A DNA stretch of 49,122 nt from Acidobacteriota bacterium (GTDB taxonomy: Bacteria > Acidobacteriota > Thermoanaerobaculia > Gp7-AA8), in the NCBI GenBank assembly GCA_021781455.1, contig JAJXWV010000063.1, forward strand, positions 1-49,122, written 5' to 3'. Positions 17,093-48,894 of the stretch are shown piece by piece. A program made the position numbers and the translations under genes. Below the pieces are notes generated by a model. It did no database searches and was not told the DNA's origin. It saw only the letters and a list, made by a program, of their open reading frames with translations. The first letter of the stretch is position 1; every line of letters starts with the position of its first letter.

Positions 17093-17169
17093 GGCCCCGT
17101 AGCTCAGCTGGACAGAGCAGGAGTTTCCTAAACTCAAGGTCGCGTGTTCGAGTCACGCCGGGGCCACCA
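17093..17169 (+). tRNA. tRNA-Arg (anticodon CCT)
   Basis: A complete cloverleaf can be drawn: acceptor GGCCCCG/CGGGGCC, D stem GCTC/GAGC, anticodon loop TTCCTAA with CCT at 17127-17129, T arm GCGTG-TTCGAGT-CACGC, discriminator A and an encoded CCA (17167-17169). The first anticodon-stem pair is a G-A mismatch. It decodes AGG, a rare codon in GC-rich genomes. Confidence 0.95.
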
Positions 17170-33002: not shown

Positions 33003-34622
33003 TCAGACCCCGGCGGCCAGGACCGCCCCGTTCTCGACCTCCACCGTCTTCACGGGAAGCGTGACCTGGAACGTGCTCCCCTGGCCGACCTTGCTCTCGA
33101 CCTCGATGTCTCCGCCGTGGGCCTCGATGATTCCGTAGACCACGGCCAGCCCCAGGCCGACTCCCTTCCCTTCTTCCTTGGTCGTGAAGAACGGGTCGAA
33201 AATCTTGCGAATCACTTCGGGCGGCATGCCCGAGCCGCTGTCGGTGACGTCGAGCGTCACCGACTTGCGGTCCGACGACGGCCGCGACCGCACCGTCACC
33301 GTCCCTCCGCCCTTGATCGCCTCCGCCGCGTTCATCACCAGGTTGATCACGACCTGCTGGATCTGCGACTGGTCGCAATGGATCTTCGGAACGTCCTCGG
33401 CCAGATCGAGGTGGAGGTCCACGTTCGACAGCTGGAGCTTGTGGGCGAGCAGCGAGACCGTGGTGCGCACGATCGCGTTCAGGTCGGCGTCGCTGGTCTG
33501 CGGCTTCGACCGTCGCGAGAACGACAGCAGGTCCGAGACGATGCGCCCGACCCGCGCCGTCTCCGACGAGACCTGGCCGAGGTAGCGGCGGAAGTCGGGC
33601 ACCCGGTTCGGAGGGATGCCGTCGTCCTTCAGGACGCGCTGCATCAGCATGGACAGGTTCAGCACGCCGGAGATCGGATTGTTGATCTCGTGAGCGACGC
33701 TCGCGGCGAGCTGGCCGAGCGACGCCAGGCGGTCGGTCTGCACGAGCTTCTGCTGCGCGCTCCGCAGCTGACGCGTGCGCTCCTCGACCTTGTTCTCGAG
33801 CTTCGCCGTGAACTCCTCGTTCTCGGCCCTGGACGCCTGGAGGCGTTCGCGCATGGTGTTGAACGAGTGCGCCAGCTGGTTGAGCTCCTCGCTGGAGGTG
33901 ATGGCGATCGGGTGGTCGAGCTGCATCTCGCTGATGGCCTTCGTCGCCCCGATGAGCTTGAGGATCGGTTTCTCGACGAAGCGGCCGGTGAAGAAGACGA
34001 GGAACACGCCGATCATCAGGATCTCCAGAATCGTCATCACGGCCGTGCGGGTGCGGAGGTTGCGCATCTCGTCGTCGACGTGGCTGGCGTCGATGGTCAG
34101 GTCGAGGACGCCCAGGACGCTGACGCTGGCCGGGTGAGCGTGGCAGCTGGCGTTGGCGCAGGAGGGCTCGTTGTAGATCGGCGTGATCATGGCCAGCGTG
34201 CGATGGCCGTCGGGCGAGCGGAAGGTCCGGGCGCGGGAAGGAGCGTCGATCTTGACCAGCGGCGTCGAAGATTTCGAGTGACAGGGCGTGCAGACTTCGG
34301 CGCGCTCGTCGAGGTGCAGCTTCTCCTGCTGTGCGGTGGAGAACATCAGCACGCCGTCCTTGTTGAACATGCGGATCTTCTCGACGCCCTGTTTTTCGGC
34401 GATGGTCTTCATGACCGTGTAGGCGTCGTCGCGGCGGTCGGCGAGCATGGCCTGCCAGGTCGCGCTGGTGATGCTGCGGGAGAGCTGATCGGCACCGCGG
34501 GTCATGCTCTCGAGGAGCTGCTTCTCCTGGTCGTGGATGTTGATCCAGAGCGTGGCGGCCTTGACGCCGAGCACGAGGAGCGCAACGGAGAGGATCAGCT
34601 TTGTGGCAAGGCGTCGTGGCAC
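33003..34622 (-). CDS. Sensor histidine kinase with c-haem sites in its periplasmic domain
   Basis: A 539-residue membrane kinase. Transmembrane helix 1 is at about residues 6-27, a periplasmic domain at 28-193, helix 2 at about 194-212, then HAMP, a coiled coil, a HisKA domain with phosphorylated His311 in [10 protein letters not shown], and an HATPase domain ([28 protein letters not shown]). The periplasmic domain carries CTPCH (111-115), a standard haem-c motif, and CANASCH (155-161), a CX4CH motif of the kind seen in some cytochromes c3. It probably senses redox state or a haem ligand. GTG 34622 with GGAGGT upstream is chosen over the longer open frame. First gene of the operon. Confidence 0.92.
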
Positions 34623-34764
34623 GGGACCTCCGGAGGAGGCGCGGCGCAAGTGGCCTGGCGCGACCGTGTGGGATTGTCCGGCACGGCTCGGCCCGACGCC
34701 GATGACGCGGGTCGCGCGGCAGGGGTGATGGAGGTCATGGGGAGGGTGGTCGCGCGAGAGCTCT

Positions 34765-34922
34765 AACCACAGAGGCAGAGAGGAAAGACGTGTCATCCTG
34801 AGAGACCCTGCGGAAAACCAGGGTCCGCGACTCCAGCCACTGAATCTTCACCACAGAGGCACAGAGACACCGAGGTACACTGAGTTTTTCTCTGTGAATC
34901 TCTGTGTCTCTGCGTCTCTGTG
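34765..34922. repeat. ACCACAGAGG copies and inverted octamer arrays
   Basis: AACCACAGAGG occurs at 34765-34775. At 34852-34875 three octamers (CACAGAGG, CACAGAGA, CACCGAGG) face TCTCTGTG, TCTCTGTG, TCTCTGCG, TCTCTGTG (34889-34922). It occupies the gap between the glycosyltransferase gene end and the kinase gene start. The word equals the terminal repeat of the composite elements at 2266, 42186 and 48651. Confidence 0.8.
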
Positions 34923-36723: not shown

Positions 36724-39456
36724 CTAGAAGTCTACCCGCACCGAGGCGATGTAGCGCCGCGGATTCGCGTACGACGTGGGATGACCGAAATTCGGGTTTG
36801 GCTGCGTCGTCCCCTGCGGGGCGATGTAGTACGTCGCCGGATCGTTCGTCATGACCGCCGTGTCGAAGTATTCGGTCCGATCGACCGTGAGCACAGTCTG
36901 GGTGTTGAAGACGTTGAGCACGCGGGCCTCGAAGGTCGCGCGCATGCCGCGCGTCATCCCCAGACCGTACGACGCGCTCAGGTCGACGTTCTGCCAGTTC
37001 GGATTGTGGTAGGTCCCGACCGGATTCAGATACCGGCGGAATCCCTCGTACACCGCATCGCGGCCGAGGGCGTTCCAGGGAGAGCCCGATTCGAACCGGT
37101 AGTAGCCGCCGAAGTTGAGGTTCGGGATCACTTCGTAGCTGGCGAACGCCTTGAAGACGTGCGTGCGGTTCTGGAGCAGCGGACCCCAGCGGAACGGATC
37201 GGTGACCATGATGCCCGGACCGTCGTCGATCGCCGATGCGGTGTTGTACGTGCCGCCGCCGTTCGGAACGTCAAAGTCGTAGTTGCCGTACAGCCGGCTC
37301 CACGTGTAGTTGATGTCGGCCGACCACTTGTTGTTCAGATGGCGCTGCGCGTCGACCGTGATGGCGTAGTAGCGGCGCTTCGCCGGGATGTTGCCGGCGA
37401 CGTAGTTGCCGTCAGGGCCGCCGTCCGGCATCGGCGACGGATAGTCTTCGATGAAGTCGTGCGTCGTGCGGAACATACCGTACGCATCGAGTGACCACAC
37501 CGCAGCAAACGGAGTCGCATAGCCGAGCAGGAACTCGTCGGTGTACGTCGGCTTCGTGCCCGGCGCGATCGGTGCGGCGAAGCTGAGGCCGCTGCGCGGT
37601 TTGTCGGAGAGGAGTGCCCCCGTGACCGGGTCGAAGTATGCGGTCGACAGGATGATCGTGTGCGGCGCCAGTCCGCGGGCCGTGCTCTTCTGCTCCATGT
37701 TCGAGTAGCGGCCGATGTTTGCGTAGATCTTGTCACCGGAGTTCTCGCGGAGGTTGTAGTTGACGCCGATGCGCGGCTGGATCTCATCGCCGAAGCCGAA
37801 CTTCAGGAACGTCAGGGTCTGCCCCTGCCACTTCTGTCCGAACTCGTCACGATCGAGCAGCACGCCGACGTTCAGGTTCAGGCGCGAATTCACACTGACC
37901 GAGTCCTGCGCGTAGGCGCTGTAGGTCTTGCCGAACCCGAGCAGTGGCGGCTGGTCGGGGTAGTAGCTCGCCCGGATCTGGTTGCTCAGGACCGTGATCG
38001 AGCCCCAGCCGTTCGAAAGCCGGCTCAGGTGTTCCTCGCCGTAGTTGTATCCGACACCAGCTTTGACCTGGTGCGTCATCCCGCCGAAGTCGAAGAACTG
38101 CGAGACCGAAAGTTTGTTGTCGTTGTTCTTGTAGTCCTGGGTGCTCAGGCGGACGTAGTACGCGCCGCCATGGACCATTTTGCCACTGCCGCCCGGATCG
38201 AGAATCGAGACCGAACCCATGTGCCGCAGATCGTTCGGGTTGAAGGTCGGCTTGAATCCGAGATCAGTCTGCGCCACGAAGTGGTTGGCTTCGCTCGAGC
38301 GCAGGATCCTGGCCTCGATCAGAGTGTTCTGGGTCGCGTTCCAGTTGTAGTCGAGCGTTGCGATGCGATTCGTGTTTTTGAAGTTGAAGGCCGTTTCCGG
38401 CAGATCGTACGTTCCGACGCCGGTGTTCGGATCGTTCAGCGGAATGTGACGATAGCTCGCCGCGATGAACTGCGAGGACGTCGGCGTGGCCGTCAGTTTT
38501 CCGAACGTTTCCTTGATCGTCTGCTTTTCGTCGGCAACCGGCCCGAAGAAGTTGGACCGCCCCGTCGTGTTGATCGTCTCGTACCTTCCGGACGCATAGC
38601 CGAAAATGTGATCCTTCCAGATTGGCCCGCCGAGGCTGATCGCCGACCGAGAACGGTCTGTATTCGCGCTGAAGTTCGGATCCTTCGCCTTCGCCGCCCA
38701 GCTGCCCGGCTGATATTCCTGACGCGCAGCTCCCTCGAACTGATTGGTCCCCGACTTCGTGACGGCGTTGATGACCAGGCCGGTCGAACGCCCGAACTCG
38801 GCCGAGAATCCCGCCTTCTTCACGTTGAAGTCCTGGATGTCGAGCTCGTTCGCGTCGGTGTTGCCGATGCTGACGTAGCCGAACAGCGGATTCGTGACGC
38901 TGGCCCCGTCGAGCAGGAACATGTTCTCCTGCCGGCCGCCGCCCGCGACCGGAGCGAACCCGGTGTCTGCCGCGACGCCCGGCGCGAGCTGGAACAGCCC
39001 CTGGTACGTACGAGGCATCGGAAGCCTCTCGATCGTTTTCGCGTCGTAGTTGAAGTTGACCTCCGTCGACTTCATGTCCACGACCGGTGCGGCCGAGGTG
39101 ACCGTGATCGTCTCCGACAGGGTCGGGTTCAGCTTCAGATTCACGGCCGTGTCCTTGTCGACCGAGACCGCGACTCGCGCGCGTGCCGTGCCGAGGCCCG
39201 CCAGCGTGGCGACGACCGTGTAATTGCCGGGAGGCAGGTTCTGCACGGCGTAATTGCCGCTCGTTTCAGTGACGGTCTCTTTTCCCTTCGGCAGGACCGG
39301 ACCGGTGACGGTCACTGTCACCCCGGGAAGAGGCGCGCCGTTATTGTCACGGATCACGCCACTAATCGAGCCATAGACGTCTGCATACAACTCTGCCGCG
39401 CTGATGAGAGACAGTGCGGCAAGTGCGAGCAACCTCGCAAAAGCCTTGACGCTCAT
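36724..39456 (-). CDS. TonB-dependent receptor with carboxypeptidase-regulatory domain
   Basis: A 910-residue outer-membrane protein with a signal peptide (about 1-25), a CarboxypepD_reg/Cna-B-like domain (about 28-110; SGVIRDNNGAPLPGVTVTV), a plug domain (about 115-235; ENMFLLDGASVTNPLFGY, NAVTKSGTNQFEG) and a beta-barrel ending in Phe (ASVRVDF). Such Oar-like receptors are expanded in Acidobacteriota and are thought to import glycans or peptides. The substrate is unknown. ATG 39456 follows AAGGAG. A terminator-like hairpin lies just after its stop. The 185-base region upstream (39457-39641) is AT-richer and presumably holds its promoter, but no confident -35/-10 pair was identified. Confidence 0.93.
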   Translation of the reverse strand: MSVKAFARLLALAALSLISAAELYADVYGSISGVIRDNNGAPLPGVTVTVTGPVLPKGKETVTETSGNYAVQNLPPGNYTVVATLAGLGTARARVAVSVDKDTAVNLKLNPTLSETITVTSAAPVVDMKSTEVNFNYDAKTIERLPMPRTYQGLFQLAPGVAADTGFAPVAGGGRQENMFLLDGASVTNPLFGYVSIGNTDANELDIQDFNVKKAGFSAEFGRSTGLVINAVTKSGTNQFEGAARQEYQPGSWAAKAKDPNFSANTDRSRSAISLGGPIWKDHIFGYASGRYETINTTGRSNFFGPVADEKQTIKETFGKLTATPTSSQFIAASYRHIPLNDPNTGVGTYDLPETAFNFKNTNRIATLDYNWNATQNTLIEARILRSSEANHFVAQTDLGFKPTFNPNDLRHMGSVSILDPGGSGKMVHGGAYYVRLSTQDYKNNDNKLSVSQFFDFGGMTHQVKAGVGYNYGEEHLSRLSNGWGSITVLSNQIRASYYPDQPPLLGFGKTYSAYAQDSVSVNSRLNLNVGVLLDRDEFGQKWQGQTLTFLKFGFGDEIQPRIGVNYNLRENSGDKIYANIGRYSNMEQKSTARGLAPHTIILSTAYFDPVTGALLSDKPRSGLSFAAPIAPGTKPTYTDEFLLGYATPFAAVWSLDAYGMFRTTHDFIEDYPSPMPDGGPDGNYVAGNIPAKRRYYAITVDAQRHLNNKWSADINYTWSRLYGNYDFDVPNGGGTYNTASAIDDGPGIMVTDPFRWGPLLQNRTHVFKAFASYEVIPNLNFGGYYRFESGSPWNALGRDAVYEGFRRYLNPVGTYHNPNWQNVDLSASYGLGMTRGMRATFEARVLNVFNTQTVLTVDRTEYFDTAVMTNDPATYYIAPQGTTQPNPNFGHPTSYANPRRYIASVRVDF

Positions 39457-39641: not shown

Positions 39642-40784
39642 ATGAACAGCCGCGAGCGAATGGACGCCGCCATGCGTCCGCCGCAGCAGCCCAACCGGGT
39701 CCCCGTGATGTGCCAGCTCGCGCTCGGGCACTACTTCCTCAACACCGGCCTTCCCGCGGCCGAGATCTGGCACGACTCGGAAATGTTCGCTGGCGCGCTC
39801 CTCCTGCTGCAGCGGCGCTACGGATTCGACGGCATCCTCGTGAACCTTCCCGGCCGCGATCCTGACTGGCGTGATGCGATCGCAGACATCGAGGAACGCG
39901 AAGGGCGTACCCGGATCCGCTGGAGAGAGGGGCCGGTCACAGTCGTTCCGCCCGACGACAATCCACGCGTTCTCGGCGCCGATGGCCGCAAGCGCCGCCC
40001 TCCGGCGCTCGCCGATCTCCACCCGCAGCAACTCTTCTACATCGAGCCGCATGACCGCCTCGGCGTCGTGATGCTTGCCGATTTTCCGGACTGGCAGTTC
40101 GACACGCTCTCCCGGGTTCGCGCTCTCGCACCCGACGTGTCGGTGCACGGCGAGATCTTTTCTCCGTTCTCCCAGCTCATCGAACTCCTCGGTCCGGCCC
40201 AGGCGATGCTGGCGCTCGCCGACGATCCGCGGAAAGTGAAGGCCTGCCTCGAACGGCTCGTCGAAGGGGCGGCCACGCTCGGCGCGGAATTGATCCGCGC
40301 GGGCGCCGACGCCGTGCTGATCTCGTCCGCGTATGCGGGCGCGGGCTTCATCTCGCGCGGCCATTACGAGGAGTTCGTGCTCCCGTTCGAGAGCCGGGTG
40401 ATTGAAAAGATCAAAGCGGATGCGCCCAGTGCGATCGTCTACACGCACACCTGCGGCGCGATCGGAGACCGGTTCGACCTGATGGAAGCGACCGGCACCA
40501 ACGGCGTCGACACGCTCGACCCACCACCGCTCGGCACGGTCGATCTCGCTGACGCGCGCCGGCGTCTGAGCAAACATGTCTTCATCAAAGGCAATATCGA
40601 TCCCGTGAACACGGCTTTGCGCGGTACACCCGAGGACTGCCACCGAGAGGCACTGGAGCGCATCGCCATCGCCGGACCGCGCGGCTACATCCTGAGCACA
40701 GCCTGCTCGGTCTCGCCACACACGCCCCCGGACAATGTCGAAGCCATTGCGCGCGCGGCCACGGAGTCGCCATGCGCCGTCTGA
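39642..40784 (+). CDS. Uroporphyrinogen-decarboxylase-family methyltransferase
   Basis: A 380-residue UroD-fold protein of the MtaA/CmuA-type cobamide methyltransferase group rather than a haem-pathway enzyme. Supporting marks are the metal-site HTCG (in IVYTHTCGAIGDRF) and STACSVSPHTP near the C-terminus, and the adjacent corrinoid protein and MetH-activation genes. It probably moves a methyl group from a donor onto the corrinoid cofactor, or between corrinoid and an acceptor. The donor is unknown. The next gene overlaps it by 13 bases, which indicates an operon. ATG 39642 has no clear ribosome site. Confidence 0.85.
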   Translation: MNSRERMDAAMRPPQQPNRVPVMCQLALGHYFLNTGLPAAEIWHDSEMFAGALLLLQRRYGFDGILVNLPGRDPDWRDAIADIEEREGRTRIRWREGPVTVVPPDDNPRVLGADGRKRRPPALADLHPQQLFYIEPHDRLGVVMLADFPDWQFDTLSRVRALAPDVSVHGEIFSPFSQLIELLGPAQAMLALADDPRKVKACLERLVEGAATLGAELIRAGADAVLISSAYAGAGFISRGHYEEFVLPFESRVIEKIKADAPSAIVYTHTCGAIGDRFDLMEATGTNGVDTLDPPPLGTVDLADARRRLSKHVFIKGNIDPVNTALRGTPEDCHREALERIAIAGPRGYILSTACSVSPHTPPDNVEAIARAATESPCAV

Positions 40785-41476
40785 TCCGATTCGCATTCGA
40801 CGACGTCCGCCCGGCCGACGAAGAGGTGCTGACGCGGATGGGAATGCCGGGCGACGCGCCGGTTGCGCCTGCGGTGCGCACTCTGCTCGACGACGCGCTG
40901 GAGAAGATCGCCGCGCTCGCCGAACCGCGCGGCGTCTTCCAATCGATCTCGAAAGCCGACTACGAGATGGTGTACCGCGGCGAAGGACGCAATGCCGCCG
41001 AGTCGCCACTGGAACTGATCGCGCCCCGCGCCGAGGCGCTGGCGTTGTTCGTGGGAACGATCGGAGAGAACACGGGAAAAGAGATCCGCACGCTGTTCAG
41101 GAAGGACGATCCCGCCCTGGCCATGATGCTCGACGCGTTCGCATCCGAAACGACGAACCGCGTTGCGGAAGCGCTGTCGAGGACGTTCCTTCACGAGCTC
41201 CACGGCCAGATCAGCGCCGCCGCGCGAGTCCTCCCGTACAGCCCGGGGTACTGTGGATGGCACGTCACCGGGCAGCGGGCGCTCTTCGCCGCAATCCATC
41301 CGCACGACATCGGCGTGACGCTGCAGCCGAGCTGCCTGATGACGCCGCTCAAGTCGGTCTCCGGCGTTCTCGTCGCCGGCGATGCTGCCGTGCATCGCTT
41401 CCGTCCGCAATGGGCTTTCTGCGACGAATGCCGTGAGCGCGATTGCGGACCGCGCATGGCGTCCGTGCGATCATGA
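40772..41476 (+). CDS. MetH activation-domain-like protein
   Basis: A 234-residue protein resembling the reactivation domain of B12-dependent methionine synthase as a separate polypeptide. The key segment is YSPGYCGWHVTGQ with HPHDIGVTLQPSCLMTPLKS (about residues 152-192), which matches the SAM-binding region. A cysteine cluster CDECRERDC near the C-terminus is not part of classical MetH and may bind metal. It is predicted to support reductive methylation of oxidised corrinoid by SAM. It overlaps the UroD-like gene by 13 bases, and the corrinoid protein gene starts four bases downstream. Confidence 0.85.
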   Translation: MRRLIRFAFDDVRPADEEVLTRMGMPGDAPVAPAVRTLLDDALEKIAALAEPRGVFQSISKADYEMVYRGEGRNAAESPLELIAPRAEALALFVGTIGENTGKEIRTLFRKDDPALAMMLDAFASETTNRVAEALSRTFLHELHGQISAAARVLPYSPGYCGWHVTGQRALFAAIHPHDIGVTLQPSCLMTPLKSVSGVLVAGDAAVHRFRPQWAFCDECRERDCGPRMASVRS

Positions 41477-41480
41477 AGGC

Positions 41481-42125
41481 ATGTCTTTCGACAAGCTCAG
41501 GTTCGCCATTCAGGACGGCGACGCGGCCGCCGCGAAAACGCTGACCAGCGCACTCGTCGACTCCGGCTCCGTTCCCGCAGAGATCCTCAATCAGGCGATG
41601 CTGCCGGGCATGTCCGTCGTCGGCGCGCGATTTCGCGATCGCGAGATCTTCCTGCCCGACGTCCTCCTCGCCGCACGGGCGATGAAAGCGGCCATGGCCG
41701 TGCTCGAGCCGCTGCTCCTCCGCGACCGTGTCCCTTCCGCGGGCGCGATCGTCCTCGGCACCGTGCGCGGCGACCTCCACGACATCGGAAAGAACCTCGT
41801 CTCGGTCATGCTCCAGGGCGCCGGCTACCGCGTCGTCGACCTCGGCAGCGACGTCGAGCCGGACGCCTTCATCGACGCCGCTGTCGACGAAGGAGCGTCG
41901 GTGATCGGAATGTCGGCGCTGCTCACCACGACCATGACGGAGATGGCCGCGGTCGTCGGACGCATTCGCGAGCGAGAGCTTCATGGACGCGTACGAACGA
42001 TCGTCGGAGGTGCCGCGGTGTCCGAAGCGTTCGCTTGCGAGATCGGCGCCGACGCCTACGCTTCGGACGCCATGACCGCGGTCGATCGCGTGAAGGCGAT
42101 GATGGCGGCGAATCCGTCAATCTGA
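41481..42125 (+). CDS. Corrinoid (B12)-binding methyl-carrier protein
   Basis: A 214-residue protein with an N-terminal helical cap domain (about 1-82) and a B12-binding Rossmann domain (about 86-214). The base-off ligand motif DLHDIGKN (residues 98-105) puts His100 as the cobalt ligand, and a GG (IVGGAAVS) contacts the nucleotide tail. It shuttles a methyl group on cobalt between methyltransferases. ATG 41481 is preceded by GAAGG. A repeat element separates it from the homocysteine methyltransferase gene. Confidence 0.93.
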   Translation: MSFDKLRFAIQDGDAAAAKTLTSALVDSGSVPAEILNQAMLPGMSVVGARFRDREIFLPDVLLAARAMKAAMAVLEPLLLRDRVPSAGAIVLGTVRGDLHDIGKNLVSVMLQGAGYRVVDLGSDVEPDAFIDAAVDEGASVIGMSALLTTTMTEMAAVVGRIRERELHGRVRTIVGGAAVSEAFACEIGADAYASDAMTAVDRVKAMMAANPSI

Positions 42126-42185
42126 GCGGCTGGGCCGCTGGGATTGTGCAGAAAATCGACTCTGGTCGTCTGCCGCTACATTGAA

Positions 42186-42534
42186 TTCACCACAGAGAAC
42201 ACAGCACAGGCTCGCTCCGCTCGCCCGCAAGCGAGATCGCCTCATAGGTCCCCTCGCCCCGCGGCGCGATGCACCAACCGCTCGGATCGAAGGTCCGCGG
42301 GGCGAGGGGACCGGTCGCCCGATCGTTTTGGCACAAGGAAATCTTCGCGTGGCGTGCAGAAACTTCGAGCTGGTAGTACAGAGAAGGCTCTCCGCTTGCG
42401 CGTGATCGAAGGTGTTCCACTTGAGAGCCGCGGAAGGGAAAAAAAGACCTTGGCGCACGGGACGCAACCCCGCAGGTCGGTAAGTACCGAGAGTGGGACT
42501 GAATCTCTGTGTTCTCAGTGCTCTCTGTGGTGAA
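42186..42534. mobile_element. Composite element with 13-bp TTCACCACAGAGA inverted ends
   Basis: Perfect 13-bp terminal inverted repeats (42186-42198 and 42522-42534) enclose an inner hairpin (GGTCCCCTCGCCCCGCGG facing CCGCGGGGCGAGGGGACC) and blocks such as CAAGGAAATCTTCGC. The inner blocks recur in reverse order and orientation at 48651-48894. It fills most of the gap 42126-42590 within the corrinoid gene set. No coding capacity is seen. Confidence 0.8.
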
Positions 42535-42590
42535 TCTCCGTGGTGAATGGCAGGGCGGTAATCGAGGCACAACCTTCAAAATGACGGAAC

Positions 42591-43478
42591 ATGAAGATGA
42601 TGCTCACCTTTCGACAGCGGCTCGCTTCGAACACGATCATCGGCGACGGCGGCTGGGGCGCGCTCCTCGGCGATCGCGGGCTGCCGGCCGGTGCGGCGCC
42701 CGAGCGATGGACGCTGGAGAAGCCGGAGATCATCGAGGAGATCGCCCGTGCCTACGTCGACGCCCGCGCCGAGCTGATCACGACGAATACATTCGGTGGC
42801 TCTCCGATCCGCCTCGCGCAGCACCGCCTCGGCGATCGGGTCGAGGAGATCAATCGCCGCGCCGTGGAGATCGTGCGCAAGGCCGCCGCAGGCCGCGCCT
42901 TCGTCAGCGCTTCCATCGGCCCGACGGGACGACTCCTCGCGCCGTTAGGCGATGCCGATCCCGCCGATGTCGAGCGAGGCTTCGCACAGCAGGCAGGCGT
43001 GCTCGTCGACGCCGGCGCGGACCTCGTCTGCATCGAGACCATGACCGATCTCGAGGAAGCACTGCTCGCCGTGCGTGCCGTGCGGTCGGTCTCGGCCGAG
43101 ATCCCCGTGATCGCCACGATGACGTTCGACCTGACGCCGCGCGGCCCGTTCACGGTCATGGGCGTGTCGGTCCCGCAGGCGGCCGGAGCGCTCGCCGCGG
43201 CGGGAGCGGACGTCGTCGGGTCGAACTGCGGAGCGGGAGTTGAGGAGATGCTCGTCGTGGCGGAGGCGTTCCTGGCATGCGCGAACGTGCCGGTGGCGAT
43301 TCAGCCGAACGCCGGTCTGCCGCTGCTGAAAGATGGAAGGTTGACGTATCCCGATTCCCCCGCGCGTTTCGCCGAAGCCGTGGCCCCGCTGGCCGCGCGC
43401 GGCGTGCGCATCCTCGGCGGCTGCTGCGGAACGACGCCGGCCCACATCCACGCGTTGCGCGAGCGGGTCGGTCGTTAG
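42591..43478 (+). CDS. Homocysteine S-methyltransferase (MetH N-domain/MmuM family)
   Basis: A 295-residue zinc-dependent methyltransferase with the cysteine set Cys213 (GSNCG) and Cys278-Cys279 (GGCCGTTP) that activates homocysteine thiolate, plus ETMTDLEEALLAVRA and SIGPTG from the same fold. It is the stand-alone equivalent of the first MetH domain and would take a methyl group from the corrinoid protein (or S-methylmethionine) to make methionine. The start may be ATG 42591, 42597 or 42600; the first is reported. Confidence 0.9.
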   Translation: MKMMLTFRQRLASNTIIGDGGWGALLGDRGLPAGAAPERWTLEKPEIIEEIARAYVDARAELITTNTFGGSPIRLAQHRLGDRVEEINRRAVEIVRKAAAGRAFVSASIGPTGRLLAPLGDADPADVERGFAQQAGVLVDAGADLVCIETMTDLEEALLAVRAVRSVSAEIPVIATMTFDLTPRGPFTVMGVSVPQAAGALAAAGADVVGSNCGAGVEEMLVVAEAFLACANVPVAIQPNAGLPLLKDGRLTYPDSPARFAEAVAPLAARGVRILGGCCGTTPAHIHALRERVGR

Positions 43479-44392: not shown

Positions 44393-46690
44393 TCAACCGG
44401 GAATGACGCTGCCGGCCTCCACCCGTTTCCCATCGACCCTGATCGAGTCGCCTTCGATGGCGATCTCGATCGTCTTCCCTCGCCATGGACGCGTCATCCG
44501 CACGCGATTCCATGACGGCGGCAGGCAGGGGTCGATGCGCAGGCCTTCCCACTCCGGGCGGACGCCGAAGACCCATTCCGAGACGATGCGGTGGAGCCAG
44601 GCCGCCGATCCGGTGTACCAGGTCCAGCCGGCGCGGCCGTACCACGGCGACTGCGGTCCGTCGACGTTGCCGGGCAGGACGTACGGCTCGGCCCAGTAGC
44701 GCTCCGGGTCCTTGTTGGTGGCGTCGATTGCGTCTAACAGAAATCCGACGAGCTCGCGGTCCTTCATCTTCGCCGCAGCGCCGATGGCCCACGTGGCGGC
44801 ATGAGTGTAGACGCCGCCGTTCTCGCGCAGGCCCGGCGCGTAGCGGGTGATGTAGCCGATGCGCTCGTCGGGCGTGTCGTAGGCCGGCGCCAGAAGGAGC
44901 GCCCCCGACTCGCTGACGAGATGCTCGCGCACCGCGGCCATGCAGCTTTTCGCGCGATCAGGCGGTGCGACGTCGTTGAGGACCGCCCAGGTCTGGGCGT
45001 TGAGATAGATCCTCCCCTGCTGGTTCGAGGCGCTCCCGATCTTCTCCCCCGAGTCGAGGGTGGCACGCCAGTACCAGCGGCCGTCCCAGGCCACGTCGTT
45101 GATGACGCCGACCAGCCGCTTGCGGCGCTCGTCGTAGTCGGCGGCGAACGCCGCACGTCCGGTGCGCCGATGGATCTCCGACCAGTCGCGCAGCAGCCCG
45201 GCCAGGAAGTGCCCGAGCCACACCGACTCGCCCTTCTCCTCGAGGCCGACCGCGGAGAGTCCGTCGTTCCAGTCGCCCGCGCCGATCAGCGGCAGGCCCC
45301 GAGGACTGGTGCGGCCAAAGACGCGCTCGAACGCGCGCCGCACGTGCTCCTCGAGCGGCGCCGGCGTCTCCTCGTCGAGAAACGGCGCCTGATCCGCGAG
45401 CACGCTGGCGTCGCCGGCCTCGCGGATGTAGCTCGCGGTCACGAACGAAAGCCAGAGCAGGTCGTCGGTCATTTTCGTGACGTGTCCCTGCTCGGACAGC
45501 GGGTGCCACCAGTGGTACACCGAGCCATCGGCGAACTGATGCGCAGCGTGAAGGGCGATCTGATCGCGGCAGTGCGCCGGGTCGATCGTCAGCCACACCT
45601 GCGAGTCCTGCAGCTGGTCGCGGAAGCCGAAGGCGCCGCTCTGCTGGTAATAGCCGGCACGGCCCCACAGCCGCGCGGAGATGGCCTGGTATCGGACCCA
45701 GTCGTTGATGAACGAGTCGAAACGGCGGTCGGGCGTCTCCATCCGATGTTCCGCCAGCCGTTCGCTCCACGATGCATTCACCTCCTCGAGAGCGCGCTCC
45801 ATGGTCGCGACGTCCAGCGATTTCGCCAGCAGTGACGCGGCCGCATCATGGTCGCGATCGACGGCGATCGCGAAGCCGATCGACTTCTCCTCGCCCGCCG
45901 CGAGCTCGACGGCCATGCGCATGGCCCCGACCGGATCGTGATGACGCCCGAAAAACGACGGCCACTCCGGTTCCGCGAGAGCCGCCGGCGCGCGCAGGGT
46001 TCCGTTGCGGCCGGTGAATGCGGCCTTGTCGCCTTCCGCAGTGACGACGGCGCCGGTCGTCCCGAAGCCGGCCACGTAAGGGAAGTCGCGGTTCCAGTGG
46101 CCCCAGCGCTTCGAGCCGACGTCCCACATGTGATTCCAGCCGAAGACGGCATTCTCCCGGCGAGCGGTCTCGATGAAGAGCTTGTGGAACTCGCGCCGCG
46201 GCGCGGGCGTGACCCCGCAGCACCATTCGAGATACCCGGTGAGCTCGAGCCTGCGGCTCTTCGCGCTCCGATTCCGGAGCTTCACGATCCAGAGCTCGAC
46301 GGTTTTGTGGGCGTGAGCGAAGAGCGTCCAGCTGCTGGCGATCCCGCTGTTCTCGATTTCGAAGGTCGTGTACCCGATGCCGTGACGGCAGGCGAACGAA
46401 TCGCCATCGTTCCAGACGGGCGCCGGGGAAAGAGACCACAGCGCACCCGATTCCGCGTCGCGCAGGTAGAGGAACTTGCCGCTCGTGTCGACCGCGAAAT
46501 CCTGTTGCCACCAGTTGACGACGGCCAGCTGCGAGTTGTCGATCCAGGTGAAGCCGCTGCCGCTCTGGGCGACGGCGAGGCCGAAGCGCGGGTTGGCGAT
46601 GACATTGGCCCACGGCCGCGGCGGGCGTGGATCGGTGATGACGTACTCGCGGCCATCCTCCGAGAAATGGCCGTAACGGTTGCTGGTCAT
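44393..46690 (-). CDS. GH94-family glycoside phosphorylase-like protein
   Basis: A 765-residue protein of the cellobiose/cyclic-glucan phosphorylase family (GH94), which splits beta-glucosidic bonds with inorganic phosphate. It has an N-terminal beta-sandwich (about 1-270; NPRFGLAVAQSGSGFTW), a linker, and an (alpha/alpha)6 catalytic domain with AFGFRDQLQDSQVWL, VYHWWHPL and GAGDWNDGLS, which holds the catalytic Asp. A C-terminal beta-domain follows. Which disaccharide it acts on is not clear. No signal peptide, so it is cytoplasmic. ATG 46690 is preceded by AGAGGAG; the open frame extends 96 bases further without support. Confidence 0.9.
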   Translation of the reverse strand: MTSNRYGHFSEDGREYVITDPRPPRPWANVIANPRFGLAVAQSGSGFTWIDNSQLAVVNWWQQDFAVDTSGKFLYLRDAESGALWSLSPAPVWNDGDSFACRHGIGYTTFEIENSGIASSWTLFAHAHKTVELWIVKLRNRSAKSRRLELTGYLEWCCGVTPAPRREFHKLFIETARRENAVFGWNHMWDVGSKRWGHWNRDFPYVAGFGTTGAVVTAEGDKAAFTGRNGTLRAPAALAEPEWPSFFGRHHDPVGAMRMAVELAAGEEKSIGFAIAVDRDHDAAASLLAKSLDVATMERALEEVNASWSERLAEHRMETPDRRFDSFINDWVRYQAISARLWGRAGYYQQSGAFGFRDQLQDSQVWLTIDPAHCRDQIALHAAHQFADGSVYHWWHPLSEQGHVTKMTDDLLWLSFVTASYIREAGDASVLADQAPFLDEETPAPLEEHVRRAFERVFGRTSPRGLPLIGAGDWNDGLSAVGLEEKGESVWLGHFLAGLLRDWSEIHRRTGRAAFAADYDERRKRLVGVINDVAWDGRWYWRATLDSGEKIGSASNQQGRIYLNAQTWAVLNDVAPPDRAKSCMAAVREHLVSESGALLLAPAYDTPDERIGYITRYAPGLRENGGVYTHAATWAIGAAAKMKDRELVGFLLDAIDATNKDPERYWAEPYVLPGNVDGPQSPWYGRAGWTWYTGSAAWLHRIVSEWVFGVRPEWEGLRIDPCLPPSWNRVRMTRPWRGKTIEIAIEGDSIRVDGKRVEAGSVIPG

Positions 46691-46794
46691 TCCGGGCTCC
46701 TCTTGGGGCGAACGCGATGCGGAAACCGTGCGCGTGCCGTGTCGCCGGGCGAGACTACCATTCCCCGCCAGGGAGGGCTGGCGCAAAACAGGCC

Positions 46795-48650: not shown

Positions 48651-48894
48651 ACCACAGAGAGCACAGAGACGCTTGCGCGATGAACTCTCTGTACCACTAA
48701 CTCGAAGGTTCTGCGCGCCGGGCGAAGATTTCCTTGAAGAAACGGCAGGGCGACCGGTCCCCTCGCCTCCGTGCTCCCCGACGAACAACCTCGCAGAATT
48801 GACCCGCACGGGGCGAGGGGACCTATGAGGCTAGCTTCAGTTGCGGGCGATTGGAGCGAGCCTGTGCTGTGCTCTCTGTGTGCTCTGTGGTGAA
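48651..48894. mobile_element. Composite ACCACAGAG-ended element, inverted copy
   Basis: The ends are ACCACAGAG (48651-48659) and CTCTGTGGT (48883-48891). Inner blocks GCGAAGATTTCCTTG, GGGCGACCGGTCCCCTCGCC and GGGGCGAGGGGACCTATGAG are the reverse complements of blocks at 42241-42348, so it is an inverted relative of the 42186 element with a different middle. Between it and 49045 no gene was seen. Confidence 0.75.

Follow-up and report, generated by a model that had tools for sequence, protein, structure and literature searches.

The window analysed here is the whole stretch of 49,122 nucleotides of contig JAJXWV010000063.1 from an Acidobacteriota bacterium (assembly GCA_021781455.1), and our subject is a cluster of four genes near its end. 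An earlier reading of the letters (hereafter the original prediction) had named them a UroD-type methyltransferase, a MetH activation-like protein, a corrinoid carrier and a homocysteine methyltransferase. These four identities were upheld by Pfam matches, and all four open reading frames were found intact on the forward strand. The genes are called UroD, Act, Corr and HMT below (Table 1).

Table 1. Features of the UroD-Act-Corr-HMT cluster, in positions of the window
Feature	Position	Strand	Evidence
UROD-fold corrinoid methyltransferase (UroD), predicted methyl-donor subunit	39642..40784	+	Pfam URO-D 134 bits; zinc triad H269, C271, C355
MetH activation-domain-like protein (Act)	40772..41476	+	Pfam Met_synt_B12 31.8 bits
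Corrinoid-binding protein (Corr)	41481..42125	+	B12-binding_2 74 bits and B12-binding 86.5 bits; GDLHDIG motif
Dispersed repeat material in the Corr-HMT gap	42186..42535 (parts 42186-42384, 42480-42535)	no strand	59 genome matches
Homocysteine S-methyltransferase (HMT), MetH N-terminal type	42591..43478	+	S-methyl_trans 212 bits, full length; NCG, GGCCG motifs

UroD, Act and Corr form a tight run: the first two overlap by 13 nucleotides, and 4 nucleotides separate the end of Act from the ATG called for Corr, which has an in-frame alternative ATG upstream at 41382. HMT follows after 465 nucleotides occupied in part by the dispersed repeat. This gap is most simply an insertion, because Corr and HMT adjoin without a gap in locus L008, from an Acidobacteria metagenome-assembled genome, and in locus L085, from genome G037 of the same genus as the window. 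The four-gene arrangement is not due to chance, since L008 repeats the same four parts in identical order. Both a homocysteine-binding S-methyl_trans domain and a corrinoid-binding module, two features of a split MetH, are present in the cluster, and the best PDB match of HMT was 1q7m, a 5-methyltetrahydrofolate S-homocysteine methyltransferase (E 1.8e-46). Neither a Pterin_bind gene nor an MTHFR gene was detected with Pfam among the four genes and the six neighbours scanned. No Rfam match was found at the operon, the sole match in the window being a tRNA at 17093. The repeat family has a second window copy at 48686-48880.

UroD scored below every curated cut-off tested. Its best score was 92.9 bits against 244 for a CoM-methyltransferase subfamily model, and the MtaA/MtbA-type models gave 67-93 bits against cut-offs of 235-600. 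The same five curated models matched all 40 UroD homologues scanned. An AlphaFold model of UroD (predicted local distance difference test score, pLDDT, 94.8) had as its best fold match MtaA 4ay7 (Z 35.4, root-mean-square deviation (rmsd) 2.4, 319 aligned residues, 19 % identity). Because human UROD ties with MtaA (Z 35.3), the fold alone is indecisive and the zinc site decides. In a structure-based alignment of 40 of the 70 sequences, H269, C271 and C355 were invariant in all 40 homologues and aligned with the H-x-C...C of 4ay7. The corresponding columns hold Tyr, Arg or Lys, and His in two HemE proteins of the window's family, and His, Asp and Gly in a distant UroD of locus L090; a further HemE control, L082, was left out as mis-extracted (62 amino acids). 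HemE was also tried as an identity for UroD and rejected, with 51.8 bits against the hemE cut-off of 302.95 and different residues at the triad columns of the HemE controls. According to a 2023 preprint (PMC10418091), a His-Cys-Cys zinc triad is the signature of sulfur and selenium methyltransferases. UroD thus carries the His-x-Cys...Cys triad of UROD-family enzymes of this kind (SCMT/Mlp type). Its donor may then be a thioether, thiol or selenide methyl, an assignment that we hold at slightly below even odds.

It appears quite improbable that UroD, acting like CmuA or CdmB, takes its methyl from a haloalkane or from some other methyl donor free of sulfur and selenium, with the flow to homocysteine unchanged. 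The mtaA_cmuA model (TIGR01463) does match all 40 members, the window's own far below cut-off (83.4 against 235.4 bits). According to PMC13222342, CdmB needs no zinc, whereas the zinc triad of UroD is invariant.

The Met_synt_B12 match of Act is partial, covering profile positions 120-252 of 273 at a score above the cut-off of 25 bits. Its predicted model (pLDDT 80.2) aligned with 1j6r at Z 19.6 (rmsd 2.3, 193 residues), the next other fold reaching Z 5.2, and with the MetH reactivation domain 6bm5 at Z 15.7 (rmsd 3.2, 205 residues). Judged by this model, Act keeps the AdoMet (S-adenosylmethionine)-binding reactivation-domain fold of MetH.

Close free-standing homologues of Corr occur in many of the 148 genomes of the window's class. 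We fetched 20 class loci, mostly the best-scoring of these matches, about a dozen weaker ones being left out; the loci of G028, G029 and G037 were fetched separately from the best-scoring ones. Near Corr, the fetched loci exhibited an MttB-family gene in 16 cases, HMT in 15, both in 13 and Act in 13, and a UroD match in none of the 20. Five loci (L117, L120, L121, L123 and L124) have the ordering MttB-Act-Corr-HMT, which is that of the window with MttB replacing UroD; their MttB was identified with Pfam PF06253 at 241-255 bits. Ten MttB proteins matched NCBIfam TIGR02369 over nearly its full length, below the model cut-off; no stop interrupts the matched frames, and pyrrolysine is thus not needed in them. 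In G028 and G029, from the window's own family, the ordering is Corr-HMT-Act-MttB (Act of G029 by tblastn only), and in G172, the Gemmatimonadetes genome of L009, MttB-Corr-RACo is coupled with HMT.

In the HMT tree (37 rows), the window, L085 and L008 fall within a 16-row set (97/92) holding 11 MttB-coupled rows, and the UroD-coupled rows of Ignavibacteria, Bacteroidota and KSB1 are separate from it. The UroD label requires at least 3 changes on this tree, forced by the starred branches. In the Corr tree (43 rows), the window and L085 lie outside the Ignavibacteria set, itself supported at 99/97. From the gene order and the HMT tree, the best reading is that the donor subunit was exchanged on the Act-Corr-HMT set, UroD for an MttB-type protein, and the frequency of MttB in the class suggests MttB to UroD as the direction. 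We assign UroD to the donor side, as it stands where the sister loci have a known family of donor enzymes. The original prediction had UroD replacing the pterin-binding module. The absence of a pterin gene from the cluster agrees with this, but UroD sits where sister operons have their MttB donor, and it is thus not so much the pterin module as the MttB-type subunit that it replaces. The further proposal of a methyl donor other than methyl-tetrahydrofolate is probably right, considering the UroD donor, the pterin-free cluster and the MttB-coupled sister operons.

Outside the window, 69 loci with UroD were found, all from metagenome-assembled genomes according to their records. A tree was built from the sequences longer than 300 amino acids (66 of 70). 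In the clade near the window's protein, at least one of Corr, HMT, RACo and Act lies nearby in 20 of the 34 outside loci, and in 15 of the 19 that extend 3 kb or more to either side; two other clades (12 and 7 rows) comprise no row with Corr or HMT near. The co-occurrence with unrelated pathways that would have told against the original prediction was therefore not seen in the near clade. The full operon UroD-RACo-Act-Corr-HMT is present in L022 and L023. For the 11 loci with UroD, Corr and HMT all long enough, the distances of the three proteins correlate (r 0.91-0.96, with 0 of 2000 permutations as high and species history not removed), as expected for co-inheritance. The UroDs in plasmid records were all distant, with identities under 60 %. 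The neighbourhoods of L028 and L030 are nearly identical, with assignments to a gammaproteobacterium and to Ignavibacteriales respectively, which indicates a recent transfer or a binning error. A conserved protein of about 110 amino acids lies near HMT in clusters of Planctomycetota and Verrucomicrobiota (L058:7547-7876, L066:12870 onwards, L068:3309-3638), its L068 copy having no Pfam match.

Two outside operons include folate genes. That of L058 contains one gene combining MTHFR and DUF5981, and that of L090 (G175:C23) brings together UroD, Corr, HMT, MTHFR and Pterin_bind, its UroD belonging to another clade. In L090:2391-8951, a GH10 xylanase-family gene lies directly 5' of the His-x-Asp UroD and is followed by Corr, HMT, MTHFR and the pterin-binding gene. 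The L090 operon is a candidate for the demethylation of methyl ethers, perhaps of methylated sugars. Such operons bear on a catabolic role for the window's cluster, in which UroD would strip methyl groups for carbon or energy, homocysteine being just one acceptor, and the methyl would pass to folate through reverse MetH or through a pterin methyltransferase encoded elsewhere in the genome, along the lines of Ruegeria MtgBCDE. The MTHFR genes of L058 and L090, the latter with Pterin_bind beside Corr-HMT, would fit this role, as would the sharing of methionine and betaine use described in PMC12478193. We nevertheless consider it unlikely, since MTHFR and pterin genes are missing among the window's four genes and six scanned neighbours and a BLAST comparison using the proteins of L090 labelled none in the MttB-Act-Corr-HMT sister loci.

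The genome of the window (G000, 90 contigs, rated 100 % complete) encodes a full MetH at G000:C43:106219-109722 (1682.7 bits) and shows no MetE match. A second HMT-type match, a 644-amino-acid frame at C43:174473, may by its length be of the bifunctional HMT/MTHFR type. The original prediction had seen in the cluster a full split methionine synthase, with the implication that it serves in place of MetH, and had itself named a separate complete MetH, together with co-occurrence of the UroD-like gene with unrelated pathways, as what would refute it. With such a MetH on C43 this claim is not supported, and the cluster as sole methionine synthase of this genome was rejected. MetH matches over cut-off were obtained in 17 of the 18 genomes of the window's family and in 32 of the 39 outside genomes with this UroD. 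The 32 are made up of 21 of the 24 outside genomes having UroD near Corr or HMT, and of 11 of the 15 near-clade genomes with neither Corr nor HMT on the available stretch around UroD. The 3 remaining among the 24 are G012 and G016, both with MetE matches, and G024, with neither MetH nor MetE; an assembly gap is likely for G024 because MetH is present in the closely related G179 and G180. Among the 15, the 4 others are G177, G178, and G183 and G185, these last two with fragments. Since the window genome and most UroD genomes hold MetH, the cluster is an accessory system added to it. Long HemE-like matches were found in 3 of the 18 family genomes, though the window protein at 33003-34796 has CxxCH motifs.

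A split methionine synthase that still depends on folate, the UROD-fold protein having taken over the binding of methyl-tetrahydrofolate, is highly improbable. MetE, a methylfolate-binding enzyme from the superfamily of the UROD fold, did come up in the fold search with UroD (3rpd, Z 22.8; 1xdj, Z 21.0), and MTHFR stands in the L058 operon. This is opposed by the wide presence of MetH in UroD genomes, by MttB occupying the same place in sister operons, and by the His-Cys-Cys site, suited to sulfur or selenium as soft ligands. Moreover, UroD and Pterin_bind coexist in L090, so that UroD is not a stand-in for the folate module there.

We therefore favour, with a probability of about 0.6, an accessory, folate-independent system transferring methyl groups from a methyl compound to homocysteine as acceptor. 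UroD would demethylate a small molecule and load the methyl onto the Co(I) of Corr; the donor molecule is most likely a thioether, thiol or selenide, in which sulfur or selenium bears the methyl. The MetH-type HMT would then move it from Corr to homocysteine, giving methionine, and Act would reactivate or dock Corr. The Act-Corr-HMT set, in this class usually coupled to MttB, would thus work with a UroD-family donor instead. The gene families, the conserved zinc ligands, the conservation of the operon, the donor exchange in gene order and HMT tree and the presence of MetH are observed, whereas which way the methyl flows, what kind of compound donates it and what Act does are inferred.

Several observations weigh against this system. 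Besides the tie in fold score with human UROD, the zinc ligands are the sole source of the predicted sulfur or selenium donor. The AdoMet-binding motif of the MetH activation domain is RxxxGY; Act keeps SPGY, but depending on how the sequences are aligned, an insertion of three residues displaces the AdoMet-binding Arg or a Pro takes its place. No intact RACo was detected in the window genome (PF14574, E 0.001), which has one 48-bit fragment on contig C62. The Corr tree does not settle the position of the window relative to the MttB-coupled rows. UroD was found in just 1 of the 148 class genomes (E 1e-25). The neighbours of the outside UroD loci (SSF symporters, PhyH, GH28, sulfatase, GHMP kinase) are inconsistent and often sugar-related, as judged from Pfam scans of four sets of 10 UroD-locus proteins, module proteins included. 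Finally, UroD of the same-genus genome G037 is reduced to an in-frame remnant at L085:4555-4710, with approximately residues 1-25 joined to 350-378.

The contig with the RACo fragment (G000:C62, locus L079) measures 3866 bases and carries an enoyl-CoA hydratase-like gene, recognised by eye, the RACo-like fragment with an in-frame stop, and a pterin-binding-type gene matching MetH 343-581. The window cluster itself is flanked upstream by a TonB-dependent receptor-like gene (36724-39456, reverse strand) and downstream by a GH94 phosphorylase-family gene (44393-46786, reverse strand).

The G037 remnant reflects either a real deletion that left the genes after it whole or a fault of assembly: Act, Corr and HMT of L085 are intact and 62-73 % identical to those of the window, and the assembly counts 480 contigs. 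Together with the repeat between Corr and HMT, it makes a decay of the window's system possible. In its strongest form the cluster would be a relic, with UroD acquired by transfer, the operon split by the repeat and the donor gene already lost in a sister species, as the rarity of UroD in the class might also suggest. We regard such a relic as improbable, given that the four window frames are intact with conserved catalytic motifs and that mis-assembly may explain the L085 deletion.

The accessory homocysteine system that we favour has a working precedent by analogy in MtgBCDE of Ruegeria and Phaeobacter. As described in PMC12478193, the donor methyltransferase, the corrinoid protein and the homocysteine subunit of MetH type are separate there and serve both betaine demethylation and methionine synthesis from the split set. 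In that system the donor belongs to the MttB family (PF06253) and MtgD serves as a shared pterin subunit, whereas the window has a UROD-fold donor, no pterin gene in the cluster and a coexisting MetH; an MttB-family donor beside Corr is found in the sister class loci. Type 1 mlp clusters resemble the window by a UroD-family methyltransferase with a His-Cys-Cys zinc site, a corrinoid protein and no folate methyltransferase. They comprise several Mlps (at least Mlp2 and Mlp3) with a Ram/RACE activator and, in PMC10418091, are reported from obligate anaerobes only. The window has one UroD, the single PF01208 match of the whole genome, with no intact RACo by PF14574 and with HMT as the acceptor enzyme of the operon. 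The soluble coenzyme M methyltransferases MtaA and MtbA share the top fold match and the zinc triad with UroD, but UroD scores below their cut-offs and its acceptor would be homocysteine, reached via a second enzyme. The core methionine synthases MesA-D also make methionine without methylfolate and are, according to PMC7857596, single enzymes of the MetE C-terminal type, whereas the window's HMT is of the MetH N-terminal type with its own Corr. We found no UroD-Corr-HMT or MttB-Act-Corr-HMT operon described in the titles and abstracts of the open-access literature searched.

A broader proposal, which we advance tentatively as something closer to possible than to probable, is that Act-Corr-HMT may be a plug-in chassis for methionine. 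It would accept MttB for methylated amines, His-Cys-Cys UroD for sulfur or selenium methyls and His-x-Asp UroD for methyl ethers, so that different lineages would form methionine straight from methyl compounds of their environment, bypassing folate alongside MetH. If the accessory system is real, methionine synthesis would gain a sulfur-type or other UroD-type donor next to the betaine-type one already known, and the donor subunit of a corrinoid system would swap between families with the homocysteine end held constant. The donor substrate could then be tested through subunit swaps in a single host. Where methionine prototrophy and methyl-sulfur turnover are predicted for uncultured bacteria from their genes, a route would be going unnoticed.

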